Assembly: GCF_006349365.1 (NCBI RefSeq)
Contig: NZ_CP040899.1
Span: forward strand, 1,364,001 to 1,428,000
DNA length: 64,000 nucleotides
Source: Georgenia wutianyii
GTDB taxonomy: Bacteria; Actinomycetota; Actinomycetes; Actinomycetales; Actinomycetaceae
Direction of reading: 5' to 3'
The position numbers and the translations under genes are program-made. Shown one piece after another: positions 10,019 through 50,374 of the stretch (position 1 is its first letter; the number at the start of each line of letters is the position of its first letter). A model generated the notes under the pieces. It was given only the letters and a program-made list of their open reading frames with translations, did not search any database and was not told where the DNA came from.

Positions 10019-12109
10019 ATGCCCCGCACGATCCCCACCGTCGAGGACTTCGCGAGCGCGGTCGTCGTCGACCGCTTCGACGACATGGTCAACCCGCCCG
10101 GCCTCACCAACCACCTCGCCACCGCCCAGGTGGACCACGACGTCGTCGCCGTGCGCTCCCTGTGCGTCCCGCCCGTCTCCCAGGGGGACACCATCACCGC
10201 CCAGCTCTACCTCGGCGGTCGGCTCGCGCGGTCCTTCGGGGAGCCGGTCCACACCCAGTGGCGTCCGGACCGGGTCGAGCGGCGCACGGTCGTCGACGGC
10301 TGGGAGGTGAGCACGACGACGGCCTGCCCGCCCGGGGAGGCGGGGGTCGTCGTGCGGATCGAGGTGCGCAACGCCGCCGGGGTGGAGCGTGAGCTGCGGC
10401 TCGGGCTGTGGATCGCCTCGACCGTCACCCGGCCGTCGGGGCCGTGGCTGCGCGCCGAGGCGCCGCAGGCACCGAACACGGTCGAGGTCGCCGGGGCGAG
10501 GCGGGTGGGCAGGCCTGCCGACCGGTCCGCCGTCGCCGTCCAGGGCATGGTCGACGCGACCGGGCGTGACGTCGTGGACCACGCCGGGACGGCGCAGCTC
10601 ATCGAGGCGCGCGGGACCGTCGGCCCCGGCCGCAGCGTCGTCCACTCCTACGTCCACGTCGTCGGGACCGGTGAGGAGGAGGTGACGGCCGCCTACGAGC
10701 GCGTCGCGCGCGACGTCGACGGCGCGCTCGCCGCGTCCACCGCGCGCTGGGACGCCGAGCTCGCCGCGCTCTTCACCCCCGGAAACGAGGAGTTCTCCGG
10801 GCACCTGCCCGCCCTGCGCACGAGCGACCACGCGCTGCGCACCCTGTACTGGTGGGGCGCGATGGGCGTGCTGTGGTTCCGCCGGGACAACCCCGCCTCG
10901 GTGCTCGGGCGCACCTACGACACCCTCATGCCGCGGTACTGGCAGACGACGACCTTCATCTGGGACTACTCGCTGAGCTCGATGGTCCACGCGCTGCTCG
11001 ACCCGACCGTCATGCGCCGGCAGATCTCCCACTGGGTGGGCCTGGACATCGACGAGCACTTCGGGACCGAGTGGCTCACCGGCGGGCCGGTGGGCAACTG
11101 GTACTCCGTCAACCACTACGCCCTCATCCGCCTCGTCCACGACTACCTGCGCCTCCACGGGGACCACGACTTCCTCGACGAGGAGCTCACGACGCCCGGC
11201 GGCCGCACCCGCAGCATCGGGGACGACGTGCGCGACTGGGCCACCGCCTGGCACCGGCTGCGTGGTCACTCGGGACTGGCCGACTACGGCGAGATCGACA
11301 ACCTCCTCGAGTGCGTGAGCACCTACGTCCACGAGGTCGCCAGCCTCAACGCCGCCAACGTGTGGAACATGCGCACGGCCGCGGCGATCAGCGGGCACCA
11401 GGGCCGCGTCGGGGACGCCGCGCGGCTGCGCGCGGAGGCCGAGGCGCTCGTCCCGCTCGTCACCGAGCTCTACCTGCCCGGCCGGGGCTTCTTCCACGCC
11501 CGCCGGCCCGACGGGTCGCTCGTGGAGACCCGCCACTGCTACGACTTCGCCACCGTCGGCACGACCATCGCCCAGGACCTGCCCGCCGAGCAGCGCGAGG
11601 AGATGGTGCGCTTCTTCGTCGAGGAGCTGCGCACGCCGTCGTGGATACGGGCGCTGTCCCCGTGGGACGAGGACGCCGGCTACTCCCTGCGCGCCGACCA
11701 CCAGTGGAACGGCGCCTACCCGGCGTGGCCGGCCGACTCGGCGCGCGCGGCGATCGCGCTCGGCCGACCCGACGTCGTCCTGGAGTGGCTGCCCGGGCTG
11801 GCCCGGTCGGCCAACCAGGGCCCGCCCGGGCAGGCGCACTTCGTCGAGGAGGCCGCCGCGCCCGTCGAGGGCGGCGCCCGCAAGACCCCGCCGCAGCTGC
11901 CCTACATCATCGACTGGTCCTGCTCCTCGGCCGGGGCGTGGTGCGAGCTCGTGCTCGCCGGCGTCTTCGGCGTCGAGGTGGCGCTGGACGGCACCGTCAC
12001 GGCCGGAGGCTGCATCGCCGACCTCGACCCCGACGCGCGCCTCGAGGGGCTCACGGTCCAGGGGCGGACCTACGACGTCGTCGGCGGGCAGGTGGTGCCC
12101 CGCTCCTGA
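10019..12109 (+). CDS. predicted six-hairpin (alpha/alpha)6 glycosidase-like protein
   Basis: A 696-residue protein without a signal peptide. The first 260 residues look like a beta-sandwich domain (paired strands such as VVRIEVRNAAG). The remainder is helical with aromatic motifs of six-hairpin glycosidases (WQTTTFIWDYSLSSMVHALL, GTEWLTGGPVGNWYSVNHY, HQWNGAYPAWPADSARAA), the arrangement seen in GH63/GH15-like enzymes. It is therefore probably a cytoplasmic glycoside hydrolase acting on an imported oligosaccharide. Catalytic acids cannot be assigned by eye. It starts ten bases after the dehydratase stop, with GAGAGG as ribosome-binding site, and ends 3 bp from the convergent lactonase. Confidence 0.65.
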   Translation: MPRTIPTVEDFASAVVVDRFDDMVNPPGLTNHLATAQVDHDVVAVRSLCVPPVSQGDTITAQLYLGGRLARSFGEPVHTQWRPDRVERRTVVDGWEVSTTTACPPGEAGVVVRIEVRNAAGVERELRLGLWIASTVTRPSGPWLRAEAPQAPNTVEVAGARRVGRPADRSAVAVQGMVDATGRDVVDHAGTAQLIEARGTVGPGRSVVHSYVHVVGTGEEEVTAAYERVARDVDGALAASTARWDAELAALFTPGNEEFSGHLPALRTSDHALRTLYWWGAMGVLWFRRDNPASVLGRTYDTLMPRYWQTTTFIWDYSLSSMVHALLDPTVMRRQISHWVGLDIDEHFGTEWLTGGPVGNWYSVNHYALIRLVHDYLRLHGDHDFLDEELTTPGGRTRSIGDDVRDWATAWHRLRGHSGLADYGEIDNLLECVSTYVHEVASLNAANVWNMRTAAAISGHQGRVGDAARLRAEAEALVPLVTELYLPGRGFFHARRPDGSLVETRHCYDFATVGTTIAQDLPAEQREEMVRFFVEELRTPSWIRALSPWDEDAGYSLRADHQWNGAYPAWPADSARAAIALGRPDVVLEWLPGLARSANQGPPGQAHFVEEAAAPVEGGARKTPPQLPYIIDWSCSSAGAWCELVLAGVFGVEVALDGTVTAGGCIADLDPDARLEGLTVQGRTYDVVGGQVVPRS

Positions 12110-39213: not shown

Positions 39214-42200
39214 CTAGCTCAGCGTCAGGAGCGTCACCGCCCCCCGGCCGTTCCCGCTGCCGACGTCGCTGCGGGCCGCGGCCCGCAGGATCGCGTCGCG
39301 CTCGCGGACGGTGAGCACGCCGTCGGAGACGAGCACGCCGGTCACGTCACGGACGTGCCGCACGAACTCCCCGGGACGTGCCCACGTCGCGTCGTCGCGG
39401 ATGAGGTCGTTGACCGTGCACCCGTCCGCGGTCCGGTGGTTGGGCACCCGGCTGTCGACGTCGCCGACGACGACCGTCTCGCGGGTGTCGGAGTCCGGGC
39501 ACTCACCCGGGGGCTCCTCCTGCCCGACGATGCGGAAGGTGACCGTCTGCCACTCCTCGACGTTCCCCGCGATGTCCGCCGAGCGGAACTCCACCGTGTG
39601 CTCGCCCTCCTCCTCGAAGGTCACCGGGCCGCCGTAGACCGTGAAGTCCTCGGCGCCGGCGAGCCGCCAGTGGGTCTGGGCGACCCCGGAGGTGGCGTCC
39701 TGCGCCGTGAGGCTCAGGGCGACCTGACCGGTGTAGTCCTCCCCGTCCTGCTCCCCGGCGAGCGCGGCCGTGGTGCCCGGCGCCGTCTGGTCGATGAGGA
39801 ACTCGATCTCCTTGATGCCCGTCTCCACCGGCTCCTCACCGGAGGAGGAGGGGGTCACCTCGAAGGTCGCGACCATCCCGCGCCACGTCGTCGGGTCGGT
39901 GAGGTCGGGCAGGTTCGCGTGCGGCGTGCAGTACACGTAGAACCGACCGGCCTCGGTGGCCTCGAAGTAGAACGGGTCGTCCTCCCAGTCCGAGCCCTCC
40001 GGACGGGAGGCGAGCACGTTCCCCTCGTCGTCGGTGACGACGACGTCGTGCGGGTAGCCCGGCACGTACTGGAACTTGATCGTGTCCCCCTGCTGGACGG
40101 CGAAGTCGGTCTCGCTGAACCCGAACCCGCCGGACCCCACGAGGATCTCCTTCTCGCTCGGCTCCTCGCCACCACCACTACCCGGCCGCACGGCCTTGTA
40201 GTCGATGTTGTAGACGCCGTCCTCATCGAAGGTGACCGGCTCGGTCCACGTGCGCCACTGCGTCTCGTCGGTCCGCGGACGCCACAGCAGCTGCGCCTGC
40301 GGGTCGTTGGACTCCAGCGTGAGCGTCACGGGGGAGACGTACCAGCGGCCGTCACCGTCGGGCGCGCCCGGCTCGAGCGTGGCGTCGACCGTGAGCTCTG
40401 GGACCTCCTGGGTGAGCTCCTTGATCCACACGTTGCGCAGCTCGACGTTGTCCCCGGCCTGCTGGCCGGAGGCGTGGTTCTGCAGGCCGACGAAGCCCTC
40501 GAGCCCGCGGCTGCCGTCACCGGTGTACGTCGCGACCTCGACGTCGTTGATCGTCACCCGGTACTCCTGGCCGATCGCCTCGATCTCCATCGTGTTCCAC
40601 TCACCGATGGGGTTGGTGGCGACGGGCTCGGCCGGCGCGAAGGTGTAGATCGAGCCGGTGCGGGTCATCGGGTCGGTCGCCGCCTCGTAGATCTGGATCT
40701 CGTAGCCGTCGTCCACCGGCTTCCACGGGTCACCCTCCGGGTCCGGGAAGCGCACGAACACCCCGGAGTTGTCGGTCGGGTTCTGGACGCGGAAGTCGAC
40801 CTGCATGACGAAGTCCTCGAACATCTGCTCGTCGTACCAGAGCAGACCCATGCCACCGTGCGGCTGGAGCACGCCGCAGTCACCGATCTCGAAGCCTCCG
40901 GTACCGGCCTGCGTCCACCCCTCGAGCGACTCGCCGTCGAACAGCGAGACGTAGCCCTCGGGCGGGGTCTGCTCGTCGGGGCAGGTCGTGTCCCCGAGCT
41001 CCTGGACCCAGACGTCGCGGAAGAACACGTTGTCCTCCACGCGGTTGTTCTGCAGCCCGATGTAGCCGGAGGACAGGTCGCGGCCGAGGTCGCCCGGGTC
41101 CTCGTAGTCGTTGACGAGGATGCCGTTGATCCACACCTTGACCATCGGGTCGTCGACCTCGATGACCATCTCGTTCCACTCACCGGCGACCGTCGGGAAC
41201 GACGTCGGGGCCTGGTAGGTGTAGATCGACCCGGTCTTGGAGCTGTCGGCGGCGTTCGGGCTGCCGCCGGTGTCGTCGATGTTGATCTCGTAGCCCTGGC
41301 GCACCGCGACCCACGGGTCGTCACCCGGGTCCGGGAACCCGAAGAACACGCCTGAGTTGTCCGCCTCCGTCACGGCCTTGAAGTCGACGTGCAGCCGGTA
41401 GGACTCGAACTCCTCCTCGTACCAGAGCATGCCCAGCCCGGCCGGGTCACCGATGGTCTCGAGGGCGCACGCGCCCTCGCGGTCCGGGTCCGGGACGACG
41501 GCGAGCCCACCGGGCCCGGACTGGCGCCAGCCGTCGAGCGAGGCGCCGTCCCACAGCGCGCGGTAGCCGGCGTCGGGCGTCGGTGCGGCGCACACCGGCG
41601 GGGTCGGCTCCTGCTGGCCGCACAGCGAGAAGTCGCTGAACGTCGCGGTCTGCGGTGTCTGGATGGCGCCGGGGCCGTGCACGGCGAAGAAGCCGATCTT
41701 CGGCGCCTCGTACTGCCCGACCGGCGCCGGACGTCCGATGTTCACCCAGGAGCTGCCGGCCACGGAGTAGGCGGCCGCGACGTTGGTGCCGTCGCTCGTC
41801 AGCCGCAGGGTCAGCGTCCGTGGCGCGTTGTACAGGTACTGGTCGTCGACGTCGCCCTGGTAGCGGATCTCGCCGTCCTGGTGGAAGAGGTACTCGAACC
41901 GGGCCTCGGTGCTGTTGCCGTACGGCGGGAAGTACGCCAGCTTGGTGAAGTTGGCGTCGTCCTCGTAGACGATGAACCCGGCCTGGTCGTAGTCGACCGC
42001 GCCCGTCGGCATCTCGAGCGTGACCTCCGAGACCCACCGGCCCTCGGGGAGGTCGGTGAGCACGAGGTTCTGCCCGTCGGTCAGGATGTTGCCGCTGAGG
42101 TGGTTGCTGATCATGTCGCCCTGGAGCATGTCGATCTCCAGCGCGCCGTCCACCTGGCGGTAGCCGTCGGGGTTCTCCCGCACGATCGTCGACCACAGCT

Positions 42201-43803
42201 CGCGGTCGAGCTCCTCGCCGGCGAAGTCGTCGGCGCGGCAGACGTCGGGCACCGACCCGCCGTCGTCGCTCACGTAGTCGATGCGGTAGAGCGCCTGGCT
42301 GGCGCCGGTGTCGAACGAGCCGCCCTCGAGCACGTACAGCGAGCCGTCCGGGCCGAACTGCCCGTCCATGAGGCCGGCCCACCACTCGCCCGCCATGAAG
42401 TCGTCGATCGCGGTGACCTGCTCGTTCTCGTCCAGCTCGGCCGTCTTGATGTGGCCGCGGTGGTAGTCGAGGAGGAACCAGCGCCCGTCGTAGTGCTCGG
42501 GGAACTTCGTGTCGGAGTCGAGGTCCGCGTCGTAGCGGTACACCGGTCCGGACATCGGGCCGCCTGCCCCGGAGCCCATGTTGAGGAAGGGCTCGGGGAT
42601 CGGGTTGATCTCCTGGGCGGGCCAGCCCTCCCACGACTCGGGCCAGTTGGCCCAGCTGCGCGGGTAGTAGATGGTCGCGGGCTTGACCGGCGGGAGCTTC
42701 TCCAGGCCGGTGTTGTTCGGGGAGTCGTTGACCGGGCCGCCCACGCAGTCGTAGAAGTCGCCGAGCGGCTGGTCGGTCACGTAGTCCCACGGCCGGTACG
42801 GGTAGTTGTTCCCGATGCAGAACGGGTAGCCGAAGTTCGCCGGCTCGGACGTCGCCATGTACTGGTCGAAGCCCCACGGCCCGCGCTCGGTCCACTCACC
42901 GAGCCGGTCGGGCCCGTAGTTGCCGATGTGCAGCCGGTCGGTCGCCGGGTCGATCGAGATGCGGAAGGGGTTGCGGAAGCCCATCGCGTAGATCTCGGCC
43001 CGCGTGAGGTCCGGGTCGGAGGTCTCGGGCGGGAAGAGGTTGCCCTCGGGGATCGTGTACGTCCCGTCCGGCTGGGGCGTGATCCGCAGGATCTTGGCGC
43101 GCAGGTCGTTGGTGTTGCCCGACGTGCGGCGGTCGTCGTTGTACCAGTGGGTCGGCCGGTTGTCGATGGGCGAGTACTGGTTGTTGAGGTCGGGCGTCGA
43201 CTCGTCGCCCGTGCTGAGGTAGAGGTTGCCCTCGGAGTCGAAGTCGAGGTCGCCCGCGACGTGGCAGCAGTTCGTCTTCTCGTAGGGGACCTTGAGCATG
43301 ACGATCTCCGAGGAGACGTCGATCTCGTCGTCCACCAGCGTGAAGCGCGAGAGGACGTGGTTGTTCTCCTCGCGGCTCGTGTAGTAGGCGTACAGCCAGC
43401 CGTTGGACTCGAAGTCCGGGTCGAGGGTGAGGCCGAGGAGGCCGCCCTCCTGGTTCTTGGACCCCTCGATGTCCGGGCGCGCCGGCAGCGGGTGGTCGTC
43501 GAAGACGCTGAGCTCGGCGGCGACCGTCGTCTCACCCGTGTCCGGGTGGTAGATCTGGACGACGCCGTCGCGGCTGGTCGTGAAGACCCGGCCGTCGGCG
43601 GCGATGTCCATGGTCATCGGCTGCGGCACCGAGGCCAGCCGGACCTTCTCGAACTCGTCCGTCGCCGAGAGCTCGGCGAACGTCCGTTCCTCCGCGACGT
43701 CCTGCGCGGCCACGTCGACAGGGTCTGCCCCTGCCGGCGCGGCCACGAAGAATGACATCACCAATGGTAACGACAACAATCCAGCAATGGATCGTCTACT
43801 CAT
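39214..43803 (-). CDS. giant secreted multidomain sugar dehydrogenase, DUF1080 and cupredoxin protein
   Basis: A 1529-residue exported protein. After a signal peptide (about 1-34, cleavage near AGA-DP), residues 45-520 form a glucose/sorbosone dehydrogenase propeller (NQEGGLLGLTLDP, AGDLDFDSEGNLYLSTGDES, GFRNPFRIS), usually PQQ-dependent. Residues 525-725 are a DUF1349-like lectin sandwich. Two DUF1080 (3-keto-disaccharide hydrolase) domains lie near 743-938 and 949-1128 (LWDGASLDGW, LFDGESLEGW). OmpL47-like modules flank a cupredoxin at about 1215-1320, whose type-1 copper ligands are His1252, Cys1292, His1295 and Met1310. The C-terminal 100 residues are unassigned. The ATG at 43803 follows GGAGGGG. 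Electron transfer from sugar to the fused copper site is inferred. Confidence 0.85.
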   Translation of the reverse strand: MSRRSIAGLLSLPLVMSFFVAAPAGADPVDVAAQDVAEERTFAELSATDEFEKVRLASVPQPMTMDIAADGRVFTTSRDGVVQIYHPDTGETTVAAELSVFDDHPLPARPDIEGSKNQEGGLLGLTLDPDFESNGWLYAYYTSREENNHVLSRFTLVDDEIDVSSEIVMLKVPYEKTNCCHVAGDLDFDSEGNLYLSTGDESTPDLNNQYSPIDNRPTHWYNDDRRTSGNTNDLRAKILRITPQPDGTYTIPEGNLFPPETSDPDLTRAEIYAMGFRNPFRISIDPATDRLHIGNYGPDRLGEWTERGPWGFDQYMATSEPANFGYPFCIGNNYPYRPWDYVTDQPLGDFYDCVGGPVNDSPNNTGLEKLPPVKPATIYYPRSWANWPESWEGWPAQEINPIPEPFLNMGSGAGGPMSGPVYRYDADLDSDTKFPEHYDGRWFLLDYHRGHIKTAELDENEQVTAIDDFMAGEWWAGLMDGQFGPDGSLYVLEGGSFDTGASQALYRIDYVSDDGGSVPDVCRADDFAGEELDRELWSTIVRENPDGYRQVDGALEIDMLQGDMISNHLSGNILTDGQNLVLTDLPEGRWVSEVTLEMPTGAVDYDQAGFIVYEDDANFTKLAYFPPYGNSTEARFEYLFHQDGEIRYQGDVDDQYLYNAPRTLTLRLTSDGTNVAAAYSVAGSSWVNIGRPAPVGQYEAPKIGFFAVHGPGAIQTPQTATFSDFSLCGQQEPTPPVCAAPTPDAGYRALWDGASLDGWRQSGPGGLAVVPDPDREGACALETIGDPAGLGMLWYEEEFESYRLHVDFKAVTEADNSGVFFGFPDPGDDPWVAVRQGYEINIDDTGGSPNAADSSKTGSIYTYQAPTSFPTVAGEWNEMVIEVDDPMVKVWINGILVNDYEDPGDLGRDLSSGYIGLQNNRVEDNVFFRDVWVQELGDTTCPDEQTPPEGYVSLFDGESLEGWTQAGTGGFEIGDCGVLQPHGGMGLLWYDEQMFEDFVMQVDFRVQNPTDNSGVFVRFPDPEGDPWKPVDDGYEIQIYEAATDPMTRTGSIYTFAPAEPVATNPIGEWNTMEIEAIGQEYRVTINDVEVATYTGDGSRGLEGFVGLQNHASGQQAGDNVELRNVWIKELTQEVPELTVDATLEPGAPDGDGRWYVSPVTLTLESNDPQAQLLWRPRTDETQWRTWTEPVTFDEDGVYNIDYKAVRPGSGGGEEPSEKEILVGSGGFGFSETDFAVQQGDTIKFQYVPGYPHDVVVTDDEGNVLASRPEGSDWEDDPFYFEATEAGRFYVYCTPHANLPDLTDPTTWRGMVATFEVTPSSSGEEPVETGIKEIEFLIDQTAPGTTAALAGEQDGEDYTGQVALSLTAQDATSGVAQTHWRLAGAEDFTVYGGPVTFEEEGEHTVEFRSADIAGNVEEWQTVTFRIVGQEEPPGECPDSDTRETVVVGDVDSRVPNHRTADGCTVNDLIRDDATWARPGEFVRHVRDVTGVLVSDGVLTVRERDAILRAAARSDVGSGNGRGAVTLLTLS

Positions 43804-44098
43804 GACCCCTCCACTCTGAGTAAACATACGGAGTTATTCACAGTGTCCGCAGGTGTGGGGGTTGTCAAGGGTTCGTCCTGCATTTGAGAAATGTAATTCG
43901 CGGCTTTGTCGTGCGGGCGCGCGAAATTGCGCGAACCGAATATTCGCAGGCTGTCGCGAGGTCCGCGTGGTGCATTGATTTCTCAAGGGCCGCCGGAGCG
44001 GCTCGTGTGCGGCAGGTGGGAGCGGTTCCTCCTCCCCCCGGGTGCCCCCACCTGCCTGCCGCGGGCGGGGCCGTCGCCGGACCCGCCCGCGGTACCGC
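43804..44098 (-). promoter_or_regulatory. 295-bp spacer with promoter region of the giant gene
   Basis: More AT-rich than its surroundings. It contains a perfect -35 hexamer TTGACA (minus strand, 43868-43863), but no good -10 at standard spacing; TATGTT lies closer to the gene. At its far end GGCAGGTGGG (44011-44020) pairs with CCCACCTGCC (44047-44056), a likely terminator for the oxidoreductase gene. Confidence 0.4.
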
Positions 44099-45301
44099 TC
44101 AGCCCGGCTGGCCGACCGTCTCGAGGATCTCGCCGGTCTCCCGGTGCTGGAAGAGCACCTTGGTCCGGCCGTCGGGCAGGATCTCCCGCTTGATGACGGC
44201 GTGCCCCTCGTGCAGCTCGGGGGACCGGGAGATGCGCGGCGTCGTGCCCCCGCGCCAGTCCTCGATCTCCACCGGCGCCCACGCACCGCTCTGCGCGGAG
44301 GCGTAGCACGCGTCGATGATCGCGTTGACGACGTACCCGTCGTAGAACGACTCCTGCGGCCGGGTCCCGGCGTCCATGGAGTCGAACATGTCGGTGAACA
44401 TGTCGAGGTAGCCGAGCTCGGTGACCTCGTCACCCACCGGGAAGAGCCAGCCGCTCGTCGTCTCCGCCTTCTCCGCGACGTAGCCGGCCGACTTGCCGGT
44501 GGTGAACATGTCGAAGCCGGTGCGCAGGAAGTGGTTGAGCCAGATCGTGCCCTCGGTGCCCTGGACCTCGTCGCGCAGGTCGAGCCCTCCGCGGAACGCC
44601 CAGGAGACCTCGAACTGCCCGATGGCGCCGGACTCGAAGCGGATGAGGGCGACCGCGTGGTCGTCCGCGCTGATCGGGTGGACCAGCGTGTCCTTCCAGC
44701 AGAAGACCTCGACGGGCCGGTTCCCCTTGCCCACGAAGTTGCGGCAGATCGCGATGCAGTGGCAGCCGAGGTCGACGATGACGCCACCGCCCGCCTTCTT
44801 CTCGTCCCAGAACCACGCGCTGTGCGGACCGGGGTGCGTCTCGCGCGAGCGGACCCACAGGACGTCCCCGAGCGCGCCGTCCTGCACCGACTTCACCGCG
44901 GTGAGGGTCTTGGGGGTGTAGACGAGGTCCTCGAGGTAGCCGGCGAACACCCCGTGCTCCTCGACGATGTCGAGCATGCGCTTGGCCTCGGCGGCGGTGC
45001 GACCCAGCGGCTTGGTGCACAGCACCGCCTTGCCGTTCTCGGCGGCCAGGCGCACCGCCTCCTCGTGCATGTCGTTGGGGAGCCCGATGACGACCGTGTC
45101 GATGTCCGGGTCGGCGCAGGCCGCCTCGAGCGACGTCGTCGAGCGCGGCACCCCCCAGCGCTCACGGAACGCGGCTCCGCGCTCCTCGCTGCGCGAGTAG
45201 ACGAGCTCGACCGTGTCCTTCGTGCGGCCGCGGTTGAGCGCGGCGGTGTAGAAGTCACCGATGAGTCCGGTGCCCAGCATGGCGATTCGATGTGCTGTCA
45301 C
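44099..45301 (-). CDS. Gfo/Idh/MocA-family NAD(P)-dependent oxidoreductase
   Basis: A 400-residue protein with an N-terminal Rossmann fold ([15 protein letters not shown]), the family's conserved [15 protein letters not shown] containing the catalytic Lys, and a C-terminal alpha/beta domain ([19 protein letters not shown] with the usual Asp and His). Enzymes of this family oxidise or reduce cyclitols, amino sugars or 3-keto sugars. Between a sugar importer and a secreted DUF1080 protein, a 3-keto-sugar reductase or a dehydrogenase of the imported sugar is likely. The GTG at 45301 has AAGGAGG eight bases upstream and lies inside an inverted repeat. Confidence 0.88.
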
Positions 45302-45433: not shown

Positions 45434-46426
45434 TCAGTCCGACCGCTGCCCGGAGACGGCGACGTACACCCAGGCCAGGGCCAGGACGATCGCGCCGTAC
45501 ACGAGCTGCTGGACGGCCTGTCCCACGCCGAGGGTGAGCAGCAGCCGGTTGAGGACGGTGAGGACGAGCGCGCCGACGATGGTGCCGCCGTACCCGCCCG
45601 CCCCGCCGAGGATCGAGGTCCCGCCGATGACGGCCGCGGCGATGCTCGGCAGCAGGAAGGAGTTCGTCTGGCTCGGGCCGACGGAGCCGCTGCTGCCCGA
45701 GATGAGCAGGCCGGCGATCGCGGCGAGGACGCCGACGATGACGTAGGTGGCGATGAGCACCTGCCACACCTTGACCCCGGAGAGCCGGCACGCGAGCGGG
45801 TTGTCCCCGACGCCGTAGATGTTGCGTCCCAGCCCGGTCCGGGCGAGCCCGAGGACGAGGACGACGGAGACGACGGCCCACACGACGGCGTTGAGCGGGA
45901 CGGGCCCGACGAGCGTCCCGCCGCCGACGGTCTCCAGCACCGCAGGCACGACGGTGGGGCCGGAGAGGAAGCCGCCGCTCGAGAGCCCGACGGACACGAG
46001 TCCGAGCAGGACGCTCGACATGCCGATCGTCATGATGAGCGGGTGGACGCGGAAGATGCCGATGCCGACCCCGTTGACCAGGCCGGCGGCCGCGCCGACG
46101 ACGAGAGCGAGGGCGAGTGCCTGGACCGGTCCCGCGCCGCTCTGGGTGGCGGCGACGTAGGCCGCGACGTTCGCCGTCATCGTCACCGACAGGTCGATCC
46201 CGCCGGTGAGGAAGGCGAGCGTCTGGCCGGCCGCGAAGATCGCGAGCGGGCAGGCGAGCAGGAGGATCGAGCGCAGCCCTCGCATGGTGAACAGGCTCGG
46301 GTCGAGCAGCGCCGTCACGAGGTAGAAGACGACGAACACGACGCCGAGGACGATGACCGGTCGGTCGGTGAGCCCTCGCCGCAGGCGCTGTGACCTGGGG
46401 AGGGGAGGGGCGACGGCGGTGCTCAC
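45434..46426 (-). CDS. ribose-type ABC transporter permease (second)
   Basis: A 330-residue permease of the RbsC/AraH family with about eight to ten hydrophobic segments. Family motifs are LTGGIDLSVTMTANVAAYVA and IGGTSILGGAGGYGGTIVGA. The GTG at 46426 overlaps the upstream permease stop (GTGA), with GGAGGAAG as ribosome-binding site. It is probably half of a heterodimeric channel. The 132 bp down to the oxidoreductase gene hold only its ribosome-binding site and the inverted repeat at 45291. Confidence 0.92.
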   Translation of the reverse strand: MSTAVAPPLPRSQRLRRGLTDRPVIVLGVVFVVFYLVTALLDPSLFTMRGLRSILLLACPLAIFAAGQTLAFLTGGIDLSVTMTANVAAYVAATQSGAGPVQALALALVVGAAAGLVNGVGIGIFRVHPLIMTIGMSSVLLGLVSVGLSSGGFLSGPTVVPAVLETVGGGTLVGPVPLNAVVWAVVSVVLVLGLARTGLGRNIYGVGDNPLACRLSGVKVWQVLIATYVIVGVLAAIAGLLISGSSGSVGPSQTNSFLLPSIAAAVIGGTSILGGAGGYGGTIVGALVLTVLNRLLLTLGVGQAVQQLVYGAIVLALAWVYVAVSGQRSD

Positions 46427-47415
46427 AGCTTCCTCCTGCGCAGCTCGAGCAGGCCGCCGAGCATGACCACCCCGATGATGATCAGCCCCTCGAGCAGCAC
46501 TGCGACGTTCGGGTTGACCCCCAGGCTCAGCAGGATCGCCGGGATGAGGGTGAGGACGAAGGCGGCGAGGACGGGGCCGAGCAGCTGGCCGCGTCCGCCG
46601 GAGAGGGCGACGCCGCCGAGGACGACGGCCGCGACCGAGCCGAGGAGCGCGCCGAGGGCGATCGACTCCTGCGGGCTGCCGCTGCCGAGCAGCGCCGTCG
46701 TCACGAGGCCGGCGAGCCCGGCGAACACGCCGGAGACGACGTAGGCGTGGACGCGCGCCCGCTTGACGACGATGCCGGCGAGGAACGCTGCCTGCCGGTC
46801 GCTGCCGATGGCGTAGGTCGCGATCCCGGCGCGGCTGCGCCGGAAGGGGATCCAGATCAGGCAGTAGATGCCGGTGAGCCAGAGCAGGGCGGGCCAGGGG
46901 TTGGAGAAGCCGCCGACGATCAGCTGGGAGAGCTGCGGGTTCGCCCGGCCACCCGGCCCGCCGAGGATGAGCAGCGCGAGGCCGACGAAGGCGAAGTGCA
47001 GCGCGAGGGTGACGACGATGTCGGGCATCCCGGACACCGTGACGATCCAGCCCATGAGCCCGGAGAGCAGCGCGGTCCCGGCGACGGTGAGGACGGCGAC
47101 GAGGACGCTCGTGCCGAGGGACGCGTCCTCCATGAGCCAGGCGGAGAAGCAGTTGGCGAGCACCATGAGCGCCCCGACCGCGAGGTTGATGCCCCCGGAC
47201 AGGACGACGACCCCCTGGGCCATGGCGAGGAGCGCGAGCATGAGGCTGCCGGCCGTGAGGGCGCGCAGCTCGAAGCCGCCGAAGTTCTCCACCTGGAGGT
47301 AGCGGACGAGGATCATCGCGAGCAGCAGCACGGCCACGCCCGCGACCCACCCGTTCTGCTGGCGGAAGCGGGTGAGCCGGCCGGTCGGCTCGGGGACGGT
47401 GGTGGTGACGCTCAC
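46423..47415 (-). CDS. ribose-type ABC transporter permease (first)
   Basis: A 330-residue RbsC-like permease (MAQGVVVLSGGINLAVGALM, GGVALSGGRGQLLGPVLAAF). It overlaps the ATPase stop at 47412 and the next permease start at 46426, each by 4 bp. The two permeases have equal length but are clearly diverged, as in importers with two permease genes such as the AI-2 (Lsr) type. Confidence 0.92.
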   Translation of the reverse strand: MSVTTTVPEPTGRLTRFRQQNGWVAGVAVLLLAMILVRYLQVENFGGFELRALTAGSLMLALLAMAQGVVVLSGGINLAVGALMVLANCFSAWLMEDASLGTSVLVAVLTVAGTALLSGLMGWIVTVSGMPDIVVTLALHFAFVGLALLILGGPGGRANPQLSQLIVGGFSNPWPALLWLTGIYCLIWIPFRRSRAGIATYAIGSDRQAAFLAGIVVKRARVHAYVVSGVFAGLAGLVTTALLGSGSPQESIALGALLGSVAAVVLGGVALSGGRGQLLGPVLAAFVLTLIPAILLSLGVNPNVAVLLEGLIIIGVVMLGGLLELRRRKL

Positions 47416-48902
47416 GAGGTGGTCACCTCCGCCTCGTGCAGCCCGTGCGCGGCGTGCAGCAGCGCCTCCTCACCGGCGTCCGCCGGCAGCTCGGCGACGA
47501 CGGTGCCGCGGTAGAGGACGAGCACGCGGTCGCAGACGAGCCCGATCTCGCGCAGCTCGCTCGTGTACATGAGGACGGCGGCACCCGAGTCGGCGACCTC
47601 GCGGACGAGGTCGTAGATCTGGCGCTTGGTGCCGATGTCGATCCCGCGGGTGGGGTCGAAGAGGAGCAGCGTGCCGAACCCCTCGGCGAGCCAGCGCCCG
47701 ATGGTGAGCTTCTGCTGGTTGCCGCCGGACAGGCGCCGGGCCTGGGAGGCCGCCCGGGTGTCGATCGACAGTCGCGCGACCGCCCGGTCGACGGCGCGGT
47801 CCTCCCGCCGCCGGCTGATCGGCCCCCAGCGGGAGACGCGCGCCCGGGAGGGCAACGCGATGTTCTCCCGGATGGAGCGCTTGGGCAGCAGTGCCCACGA
47901 CCTGTCGGCGGGGACGAGCACGACCCCCTTGCGGATCGCCGCGGCCGGGTGGCGGGCCGTGAGCACCTCGCCGTCGACCCGGATCTCCCCGGTGCGCGGG
48001 CGCTGGTCCCCGGCGAGGACGTCGAAGAGCGTGTCCTGCCCCTGGCCCTCGAGCGCGACGAGGCCGAGCACCTCGCCCGGACGGACGTCGAGGCTGACGT
48101 CGTGGAGCATGTCCCCCGCGCCGAGGTCCTCCACGACGAGTCGGGGCGCCACCTCCGGCCGGCCCGCCGTGCGGGTCCGGCGGCCCTCCGCTGCCTCCTC
48201 GACCAGCCGGTCCCCGAGCATCGAGGCGACGATCCGCTGCTCCCGGCCCTCCTTCGGGGCGAAGCGTGCGACGTCGCCGCCGTCGCGGAAGACGGTGCAC
48301 ATGTCGCAGTGCTCGACGACCTCCTCGAGCCGGTGGGAGATGAACAGGACCGACCCGCCCTCCTGCCGCTGGCGGGCCATGACGGCGAAGACCTTCTCGC
48401 TGAGGTCGGCCGGCAGAGCCGCGGTGATCTCGTCGAGGATGAGCAGCCGGGGCCGGTGCGCCAGCGCGCGGGCGAGGTCGATCATCCGGAGGAACGGGAG
48501 CGGGATGTCGCGCACCCGCTCGTCGAGGTCGAGGCCCCGGATGTCGAGCCCGGCGAGGTGCTGCTCGACGGTGCTCGCGTCGGTGGCGGTGAGCCGGAGG
48601 TTGTCGCGCACCGTGAGGTCGGGGATGAGCGCGGGGTCCTGGAACACCGCGGCGATGCCGCGGGCGTACCCGTCGGCGGGGGAGCGCAGCGTCACGGGTG
48701 CGCCGTCGAGGGTGACGGTGCCGGCGTCGCGGGTGATGACGCCGGTGAGCGCCTTGACGAAGGTGGACTTGCCCGCGCCGTTCGCGCCGAGGAGCGCGTG
48801 CGTCTCCCCGTGGCCGACGGTGACGTCGGCGGAGCGCAGGGCGAGGACGCTGCCGTAGGACTTGGCCACCCCGCGGGCGGCCAGCAACGTTTCGGAGGAC
48901 AT
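47412..48902 (-). CDS. ribose-type ABC transporter ATP-binding protein (two ATPase domains)
   Basis: A 496-residue RbsA-like tandem ATPase. Domain 1 has Walker A GANGAGKST, Walker B LLILDEITAAL and H-loop FISHRLEEV, but its signature is degenerate (PLPFLRMIDLARAL in place of LSGGQ). Domain 2 lacks Walker A (LEGQGQDTLF) and the catalytic Glu (LLLFDPTRGID) but keeps LSGGNQQKL. Only the composite site formed by Walker A of domain 1 and the signature of domain 2 should hydrolyse ATP. The start codon lies 70 bp after the binding-protein stop, beyond a strong hairpin. Confidence 0.92.
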   Translation of the reverse strand: MSSETLLAARGVAKSYGSVLALRSADVTVGHGETHALLGANGAGKSTFVKALTGVITRDAGTVTLDGAPVTLRSPADGYARGIAAVFQDPALIPDLTVRDNLRLTATDASTVEQHLAGLDIRGLDLDERVRDIPLPFLRMIDLARALAHRPRLLILDEITAALPADLSEKVFAVMARQRQEGGSVLFISHRLEEVVEHCDMCTVFRDGGDVARFAPKEGREQRIVASMLGDRLVEEAAEGRRTRTAGRPEVAPRLVVEDLGAGDMLHDVSLDVRPGEVLGLVALEGQGQDTLFDVLAGDQRPRTGEIRVDGEVLTARHPAAAIRKGVVLVPADRSWALLPKRSIRENIALPSRARVSRWGPISRRREDRAVDRAVARLSIDTRAASQARRLSGGNQQKLTIGRWLAEGFGTLLLFDPTRGIDIGTKRQIYDLVREVADSGAAVLMYTSELREIGLVCDRVLVLYRGTVVAELPADAGEEALLHAAHGLHEAEVTTS

Positions 48903-48924
48903 CGTGCTCTCTCACGTCAGGGCC

Positions 48925-48958
48925 GGGGTGTCCGGGGCGTGACCGCCCCGGACACCCC
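48925..48958 (-). terminator. 15-bp perfect hairpin between binding-protein and ATPase genes
   Basis: GGGGTGTCCGGGGCG (48925-48939), TGAC loop and exact complement (48944-48958). It follows the binding-protein stop by 14 bp on the minus strand and precedes the ATPase, the position where partial terminators or 3' stabilisers raise binding-protein levels. Confidence 0.7.
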
Positions 48959-48972
48959 TGCCGTACGGCAGG

Positions 48973-50037
48973 TCAGGAACCGCTGGGGCCCTCGCAGGCG
49001 TAGAGCTGCTCCCGGGTCATCTCGAGCGGGTAGTCGATCTCCACGGCGGCGCTGGTGTCCTGCCCGCGGTCGGGCTCGTGCGCCTCCTCGAGCCGGTCGG
49101 CGGCGTCGGCCATCGTCCACAGCTCGGGGGTGAGCATCGTCGTCTGCTCGACGTCCTCGCCGGCGAGCACCTTGAGCGCGACGTTGGTGCCGACAGCGCC
49201 GATGACGGCGGGGTTGGTGACGACGGCGCCCGGTGCGCCGTCGAGCAGCTGCCCGACGAACGCGTTGCTGTCCTGCCCGGTGACGGGGACGAGGTCCTTG
49301 CCGGCGGTGCGGATGCCGTTGACGACGGTGTAGTCCGCGCCGGTGGTCCACACGCCGTCGTAGTCGCTCGCGCTGAACTGCTGGACGGCGATCTCCCCGG
49401 CGAGCGTGTAGTCCCAGTTGCTCCACACGGTGGTGAGCTCGATGTCGGGGTAGCTCTCGAGGGCGGCCATGACGCCCTCGTGCCGGTCGGTGTCGGACTG
49501 GACGCCCTCGATGCCCCGGACGTAGAGGATGTCGCCGGAACCACCGACCTCCTCGGCGAGCCACTCCATGCCCACGCGGCCCCACTCGACCTGGTCGTTC
49601 GTGACGACGTAGGCGTTCTCGCTCGTCACGGCGGCGTCGACGGCGACGACGACGATGCCCTGGGCGGTCGCCTCGTCGATGATGCCGTTGAGCTGCTCGG
49701 GGTCCGAGGGGTTGACGACGATGGCGTCCACGCCCTCCGAGATCAGGGTCTGCAGGTGCTGAACCTGCTCGGTGGGCCCGGCGTTCTCCGAGAGCACGAC
49801 GACGCGGGAGACCTGGCCGCTGGCGAGGGCCTCGGCCTGGATCGAGCAGACCATCTGCTCACGCCACCCGTTGCCCGCGAGCGTGTTGCTCACGCCGATG
49901 ACGTAGTCGCCTCCGCCTCCGTCGCCGTCGTCGGTCCCCTCGCCGCTCGCGTTCCCGTCACCCGAGCCGCAGGCGCTCAGCGCCAGCACCAAGGCTGTCG
50001 CAACTGCTGCCGTGCAGAATTTGGTGTTCAGCCTCAT
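48973..50037 (-). CDS. ribose-type periplasmic-binding-like sugar lipoprotein
   Basis: A 354-residue lipoprotein with lipobox LSAC (Cys23), an acidic Gly-rich linker and a RbsB/LsrB-type binding fold (IGVSNTLAGNGWREQMVCSI, GVDAIVVNPSDPEQLNGII, TGQDSNAFVGQLLDG). It captures a sugar outside the membrane for the importer encoded downstream. The ATG at 50037 opens the signal peptide; GGGGGAAA lies upstream. It is the first gene of the minus-strand locus reaching to 39214. Confidence 0.93.
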   Translation of the reverse strand: MRLNTKFCTAAVATALVLALSACGSGDGNASGEGTDDGDGGGGDYVIGVSNTLAGNGWREQMVCSIQAEALASGQVSRVVVLSENAGPTEQVQHLQTLISEGVDAIVVNPSDPEQLNGIIDEATAQGIVVVAVDAAVTSENAYVVTNDQVEWGRVGMEWLAEEVGGSGDILYVRGIEGVQSDTDRHEGVMAALESYPDIELTTVWSNWDYTLAGEIAVQQFSASDYDGVWTTGADYTVVNGIRTAGKDLVPVTGQDSNAFVGQLLDGAPGAVVTNPAVIGAVGTNVALKVLAGEDVEQTTMLTPELWTMADAADRLEEAHEPDRGQDTSAAVEIDYPLEMTREQLYACEGPSGS

Positions 50038-50374
50038 CGCCGGTTTCCCCCAGGTATTCGATTTGCCGTTTCGATTTGCGTCAGGGCGTGCCGAAGTGTG
50101 CCCGGACGTACGTGCCCGTGTGCGCAGCTCCATTGCTTTTGTACGACCTCATAACTAAAGATGGTCGCCTGCGTGTGCTTAAGAAACTAATGACTGTCCA
50201 CAGAAGACGTCAAGGCTTGACGCAAATGTTGTCGTCAATCGCTGCGAAGGTCGGTCCCCCGGGGGCGCCGGCTCGTGCTCCGGAGGTCGGCCCTCGGCCG
50301 GAGGGTGGAGCCGGGACGTGGCGGGACCGGCAGACCCGGTGACTTCGGCCCGGCCGGCCACTACCCTCCCGGCC
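50038..50374. promoter_or_regulatory. 337-bp divergent regulatory region upstream of the sugar-importer operon
   Basis: Visibly AT-richer than the rest of the window, with no supported gene. CGTCAA-GGC-TTGACG (50208-50222) is a perfect 6-bp inverted repeat, and a third half-site CGTCAA follows at 50233-50238. TTGACG read on the minus strand (50213-50208) could serve as -35 for the operon, though the facing -10 (TTAGTT) is weak. TACCCT at 50362-50367 is a -10 for the plus-strand hydrolase. Confidence 0.45.

Follow-up and report, generated by a model that had tools for sequence, protein, structure and literature searches.

A Georgenia protein that may join an sGDH-like sugar dehydrogenase to a nested cupredoxin and two DUF1080 domains outside the cell

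Can a single exported polypeptide oxidise a sugar, discharge the electrons and process the keto product outside the cell? The question is raised by P0001, a reading frame of 1529 amino acids at positions 39214..43803 of a 64,000-nucleotide stretch of the Georgenia wutianyii genome (the window; contig NZ_CP040899.1). Coordinates refer to the window, and the coding features located in it lie on the minus strand. The frame has a GC3 of 0.96, and its product is 71-79% identical to its orthologues. The first-pass annotation described an exported chain with a GSDH propeller, a sandwich, two DUF1080 domains and a cupredoxin, and this order was borne out by Pfam profiles: GSDH, two 3keto-disac_hyd stretches and Copper-bind score over their cut-offs, with the ConA-like or DUF1349-like sandwich (residues 525-735; 41599..42231) below its own. 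Two OmpL47-type Ig-like stretches are added by NCBIfam. Export agrees with a putative Sec signal peptide (residues 1-26; 43726..43803), with RR, a hydrophobic core and AGA/D, read by eye from the translation. The chain ends in an unnamed block (residues 1435-1515; 39259..39501) that is kept in 21 of 22 orthologues and has no match in Pfam or NCBIfam. By eye, its motif, GCTVNDLI ... FVRHV ... DGVLT.RER, recurs in mid-chain in a paralogue (L009).

The propeller (residues 46-515; 42259..43668) scores 97.6 bits against the GSDH profile (PF07995; cut-off 25), and a profile of 31 propellers, its rows picked for diversity from several phyla, matches sGDH (1c9u) with an E-value of 1.4e-26, covering positions 1-422 of the 437 in the profile. 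The catalytic set of His144 with Asp163, Arg228 and Asn229 is present: the equivalents of the first three (H181, D200 and R277) are invariant in 31/31 clade rows, and that of Asn229 (N278) is found in 29/31. Gly, Pro and Asp at 297-299 are kept in 27, 28 and 30 of the 31 rows. G297-P298 is the equivalent of the calcium pair Gly247-Pro248 by strand register with 2ism, and HMMER with 1c9u gives G308-P309 instead; each pair is conserved in 27 or more of the 31 rows. Three residues of sGDH, Lys377, Arg406 and Arg408, are presumably the anchors of the PQQ carboxylates, and here these positions hold H448, G477 and M479. The Arg408 position is M, I or V in all 31 rows, never basic; the Arg406 position is R in 7/31 and K in 4/31; His448 is kept in 22/22 orthologues but not in the wider propeller clade. 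In the accessible part of PMC6881810, His144 of sGDH is the catalytic base, Arg228 and Asn229 partner the PQQ ketones and Gly247 and Pro248 are calcium ligands; TrAA12 has an added calcium ligand, Asp242, to which Asp299 may correspond by alignment, and its model relies on different basic residues, including His330 and His350. Given that model, PQQ could still bind here despite the lost anchors.

The supply of PQQ bears on the same point. The pqqC profile (TIGR02111) found no match in the Georgenia wutianyii genome and none in 19 genomes with the same propeller clade, the completeness of which is not given. The built-in controls of this search were silent, and the same search over 296 Actinomycetota matched in 32 of them at E-values up to 0.001, in 8 over the cut-off. 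A PqqE profile gave weak matches only and also matched all 14 controls, and was set aside as uninformative. Since E. coli and fungi use PQQ that they do not make (PMC6881810, accessible part), the absence of pqqC does not refute PQQ as the cofactor. The earlier description of a PQQ propeller is therefore upheld at the catalytic and calcium positions but not at two of the sGDH carboxylate anchors, which are lost, nor by pqqC, which is absent from the 20 genomes searched, its own included. The propeller probably oxidises a sugar.

The cupredoxin (residues 1216-1318; 39850..40158; Copper-bind) is nested in the first OmpL47-type domain, which opens at residues 1136-1213 (40165..40398; NCBIfam) and contributes its last strand after the insertion, at residues 1328-1342 (39778..39822). 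A second OmpL47 domain follows (residues 1343-1430; 39514..39777; NCBIfam). All four type-1 copper ligands named in the first-pass annotation are where it placed them: His1252 (40048-40050), Cys1292 (39928-39930), His1295 (39919-39921) and Met1310 (39874-39876), and they are kept in 21/21 orthologues that have the domain. The domain belongs to the cupredoxin fold of plastocyanin and azurin, with a His-Met loop longer than plastocyanin's, the spacing of the latter being taken from general knowledge. It is the only PF00127 match in its genome at E-values up to 1e-4. Foldseek with a structure model ranks multi-Ig chains at the top and plastocyanins from rank 20, and the identity of the cupredoxin rests on its sequence and on comparison with known structures, not on that ranking. 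The domain is rather likely to work as an electron carrier. Nesting may be a habit of OmpL47-type domains, since another protein, P0166, also carries inserted modules (by eye, a DUF1080 domain and a cupredoxin, both inside OmpL47-type domains).

Some relatives of the propeller also have fused carriers. Simple motif patterns assign a cupredoxin to 12 of 90 GSDH reading frames in 79 fetched loci, a CXXCH motif to 5 and neither to 73; the propeller thus does not require a fused carrier. Four of the 12 come from L101 and L102, apparently two records of one Solirubrobacter strain. By profile, Copper-bind passes its cut-off in P0134 and in one of the L101 proteins and falls short of it in L111 and P0174; for Cytochrom_C (PF00034), L050 (Indibacter) and L073 (Algoriphagus) pass and L095 falls short. 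A propeller tree was built by a quick method, with SH-aLRT support only, from 70 of the 108 eligible rows; none of the 38 left out has a carrier motif, and most are from Micromonosporaceae, while L102, L059 and L040 (by hand) and L095 (by a length filter) had been excluded before the 108 were counted. On this tree cupredoxins occupy four places: the P0001 family; P0174, P0214, L111 and both L101 proteins; L110 with L112; and P0134. The four Bacteroidota members with CXXCH form one clade. The cupredoxin label changes six times, five of the changes being forced by starred branches, and two of the six we attribute to P0022 and to L038, the split copy, leaving four. P0134 and the large group containing L110 drew long-branch warnings, which makes their placements less sure. 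The pattern suggests several gains of a cupredoxin by relatives of the propeller, a single early gain with many losses being the weaker alternative. The claimed hand-off of electrons from the propeller to its fused carrier thus draws its support from comparison, with cupredoxin fusions at four places of the tree and cytochrome c elsewhere.

The association can also be approached from the copper side. Among the 120 of 149 matches listed for the cupredoxin/OmpL47 region, a propeller occurs in 24/25 cupredoxin-bearing proteins versus 11/95 cupredoxin-less ones, a count that leans towards association, as both the cupredoxin profile and the query came from propeller-fused cupredoxins. Outside the family the figures are 3/4 versus 10/94 (Fisher p 0.007, uncorrected for kinship and with the same profile from propeller-fused cupredoxins). 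P0166 has a cupredoxin and DUF1080 with no propeller; it starts inside a domain and may be incomplete. Three GH43 proteins matched by this query (P0197, P0201 and P0217) were considered as copper-bearing and discarded, as a pattern search found no copper motif in them. The smallest chain found with GSDH and a nested cupredoxin is P0134, of 900 amino acids, which may be membrane-anchored, as a hydrophobic stretch ends the chain; its model, predicted without an alignment, has a mean pLDDT of 37.9 and is useless.

The two DUF1080 domains (PF06439; residues 744-940, 40984..41574, and residues 950-1128, 40420..40956) score 137.7 and 128.2 bits against a cut-off of 26.8. Among orthologues E839 is invariant and E1035 is kept in at least 90%. 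The genome (3.45 Mb) holds six DUF1080 places, five of them over the cut-off, and at least seven propeller places, with paralogues that combine ThuA, GSDH and DUF1080, GSDH and an AP_endonuc_2 barrel, or DUF1080 and such a barrel. One chain (L007:5697-10160, within C1:604000-622000) places DUF1080 and an AP_endonuc_2 TIM barrel, two keto-glycoside modules, together with PA14, CBM and FIMAH. In another locus a small protein consisting of DUF1080 by itself (L008:6586-7284), its start resembling, by eye, a lipoprotein signal, lies between two ThuA-GSDH-PKD-CBM6 giants (L008:1053-6521 and L008:7579-13001). We know of no case of C3 oxidation by an sGDH-type propeller fold. The L007 barrel is kin to 8BVK (E 4.2e-14), the structure of the 3-keto-O-glycoside eliminase AtOGE according to the accessible part of PMC10628242. 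In the part of PMC6881810 available, sGDH and AA12 oxidise C1, not C3, and the earlier claim of a keto product, in so far as it implies C3 oxidation, was accordingly not borne out. Coupling of the propeller to DUF1080 through a 3-keto intermediate is held tentatively, at somewhat less than even odds.

Upstream of the gene, on the same strand, lie a Gfo/Idh/MocA oxidoreductase (44099..45301, its start set by eye) and a sugar ABC importer, which we take to be of the CUT2 type, with two BPD_transp_2 permeases, an ATPase and a Peripla_BP_4 substrate-binding protein (45434..50133; Pfam). Two G. satyanarayanai strains, L034 and L035, keep this order, and there too the oxidoreductase adjoins the gene. 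Four Jiangella species (L036, L037, L038 and L085) have two Gfo/Idh/MocA places after the gene, 26-34% identical; in L085 an SBP_bac_1 protein and two BPD_transp_1 permeases (the second at 27.2 against 26.4 bits) stand between them and a ROK regulator lies on the other side, and by eye the reading frames after the gene in L036 and L037 resemble those of L085. That the same functions accompany the gene with a different class of importer in Georgenia and Jiangella argues for a sugar pathway. For the Gfo/Idh protein of the window, NCBIfam gives no equivalog match at cut-off. A GC-rich hairpin (44059-44092; 15-nt arms, 4-nt loop, 93% complementary) stands just past the Gfo/Idh/MocA stop codon, which makes co-transcription uncertain, and the large gene may be a separate transcription unit. 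A scan of 43780-44130 found no promoter. In L034 and L035, where the stretches before the gene are shorter, the repeats that precede it in the window did not turn up. In 30 of the 79 loci the propeller reading frame or a neighbour carries DUF1080 or an AP_endonuc_2-like barrel, and in 16 a neighbour is kin to Gfo/Idh. Near the cytochrome-fused propellers of L050, L069, L073 and L075 there is no match to DUF1080, to an AP_endonuc_2-like barrel or to Gfo/Idh, which disfavours a universal 3-keto role. As with the hand-off, it is comparison that speaks for the proposed extracellular sugar role, through the export signal read by eye and the adjoining importer and Gfo/Idh/MocA genes.

The architecture is conserved in a family of orthologues. 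The protein search scored the 7992 candidates sharing most words and returned 637 matches; the orthologues, P0001-P0022, are among the best 120. Named hosts are Georgenia, Jiangella, Haloactinopolyspora, Saccharomonospora and a Natronosporangium MAG, the nearest named orthologue being that of Georgenia satyanarayanai (L034, 79% identical). The full-length gene occurs in two of five congeners searched (G001 and G002), in G001 at contig coordinates that agree with those of L034 to a few bases; the remaining three, one of them a genome 57% complete, gave paralogue-level matches only. The ConA-like domain is absent from P0018, P0019, P0020 and P0022, the second DUF1080 domain from P0021 and the cupredoxin from P0022 alone among the 22, possibly through an assembly error, since P0022 comes from a MAG. 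The Jiangella aurantiaca copy (L038:9842-14439) is split into two frames near 11905, by a sequencing error or because the gene is broken. Parts of the architecture are already named in automatic annotations ('plastocyanin/azurin family' for P0002; 'glucose/arabinose dehydrogenase/plastocyanin' for P0021), and the literature matches listed include no published work on the propeller-DUF1080-cupredoxin combination.

Taken together, we give a probability of about 0.45 to P0001 being a secreted sGDH/AA12-like sugar dehydrogenase with a built-in cupredoxin as one-electron acceptor and two DUF1080 modules acting on 3-keto-glycosides. With calcium and a quinone cofactor that it scavenges, the propeller would oxidise a hydroxyl of a glycoside or oligosaccharide; one by one, electrons would pass through the nested type-1 copper domain and on to an acceptor outside; DUF1080 would hydrolyse or hydrate the keto product; and the neighbouring ABC system would import the sugar, which the Gfo/Idh/MocA enzyme would then reduce in the cell. 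The domains, ligands, nesting, conservation and neighbours, and the carrier fusions at several places of the propeller tree, are observed; we infer the secretion, the cofactor, the route of the electrons, the C3 chemistry, the substrate and what the neighbours do. The overall interpretation of the first-pass annotation is thus supported in part: comparison favours the electron hand-off and the extracellular sugar role, and the findings on PQQ and C3 oxidation do not bear it out. A bolder version is unlikely, in which the protein is a self-contained extracellular redox glycosidase that oxidises C3, drains electrons through the nested copper domain and cleaves the keto-glycoside, its cofactor being newly bound or a new quinone, with several cupredoxin gains in actinomycetes set against cytochrome c in Bacteroidota.

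The conservative rival is oxidation at C1, by which reducing ends would become lactones, the cupredoxin would take the electrons and DUF1080 would bind or hydrolyse polysaccharide with no 3-keto intermediate. It keeps to the known chemistry of the fold noted above, a DUF1080 protein, THTE_1561, is described as an endo-xanthanase/lichenase (PMC9007349, accessible part), and the cytochrome-fused kin do without DUF1080 or Gfo/Idh matches nearby; the pairing of propellers with 3-keto-linked modules in paralogues of the same genome, and Gfo/Idh/MocA genes adjoining the propeller gene in both Georgenia and Jiangella, nevertheless leave it on the unlikely side, if the least so of the rivals. The loss of the PQQ-carboxylate anchors and the missing pqqC would also suit a propeller that does no chemistry. 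It would then be a binding scaffold like hedgehog-interacting protein, which is among the propeller-profile matches and has a non-enzymatic role, and the cupredoxin would bind copper or serve another partner. Against such a scaffold stand the His-Asp dyad and Arg, invariant across phyla, and the carrier fusions at several places of the tree, and we regard it as improbable. A last rival has the copper domain supplying electrons to a lytic polysaccharide monooxygenase, in the way that CcPDH, a PQQ-dependent pyranose dehydrogenase from Coprinopsis, does in the accessible part of PMC5960967. This is very improbable: a search for LPMO_10 (PF03067), the one family covered, found no match in 10/10 genomes, its own included (one of 14 control genomes matched), and such a partner was rejected.

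Routes by oxidation-elimination or oxidation-hydrolysis have recently been recognised as an alternative to classical glycosidases, and an oxidation-elimination-hydration pathway was reportedly described in the gut in 2024. If the dehydrogenase reading with 3-keto chemistry holds, an entire route, electron exit included, would be packed into a single exported chain. That members of this propeller clade gained copper or haem carriers repeatedly would then show how quinoprotein-type sugar oxidation is run outside the membrane by Gram-positive bacteria. The Georgenia protein may serve as a test case for propellers that lack the sGDH PQQ anchors in hosts that lack pqqC.

Among known systems, sGDH and aldose sugar dehydrogenase (PF07995; 1c9u, 2ism and 3a9g) share the propeller, the catalytic His, Asp, Arg and Asn and the calcium Gly-Pro positions, whereas in the Georgenia protein two of the three PQQ-carboxylate anchors are replaced, the third is His and the propeller shares one long multidomain chain with cupredoxin and DUF1080. 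The ThuA-GSDH-PKD giants of actinomycetes belong to the same propeller clade and are mosaics of the same style, but most GSDH frames in the fetched loci (the 73 of 90 above) have no fused-carrier motif. Methylamine dehydrogenase, which passes electrons to amicyanin, offers a precedent for transfer from a quinoprotein to a type-1 copper protein, and the 1mda complex is among the structure matches of the cupredoxin; there the proteins are separate, the cofactor is derived from tryptophan and the substrate is an amine. The fungal CcPDH is, we presume, an AA8 cytochrome b joined to AA12. As far as the accessible part of PMC6881810 goes, it likewise fuses a secreted sGDH-like propeller to a one-electron carrier in an organism group without PQQ synthesis, but it is eukaryotic, has no DUF1080 and its carrier is haem rather than copper. 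For lactose use in Caulobacter, extracytoplasmic oxidation by a periplasmic dehydrogenase, the lactose 3-dehydrogenase LacABC, followed by DUF1080 cleavage has been proposed, with fitness data (PMC9007349, accessible part); what separate proteins would do there, the Georgenia protein, with a propeller in place of LacABC, may do in one chain.
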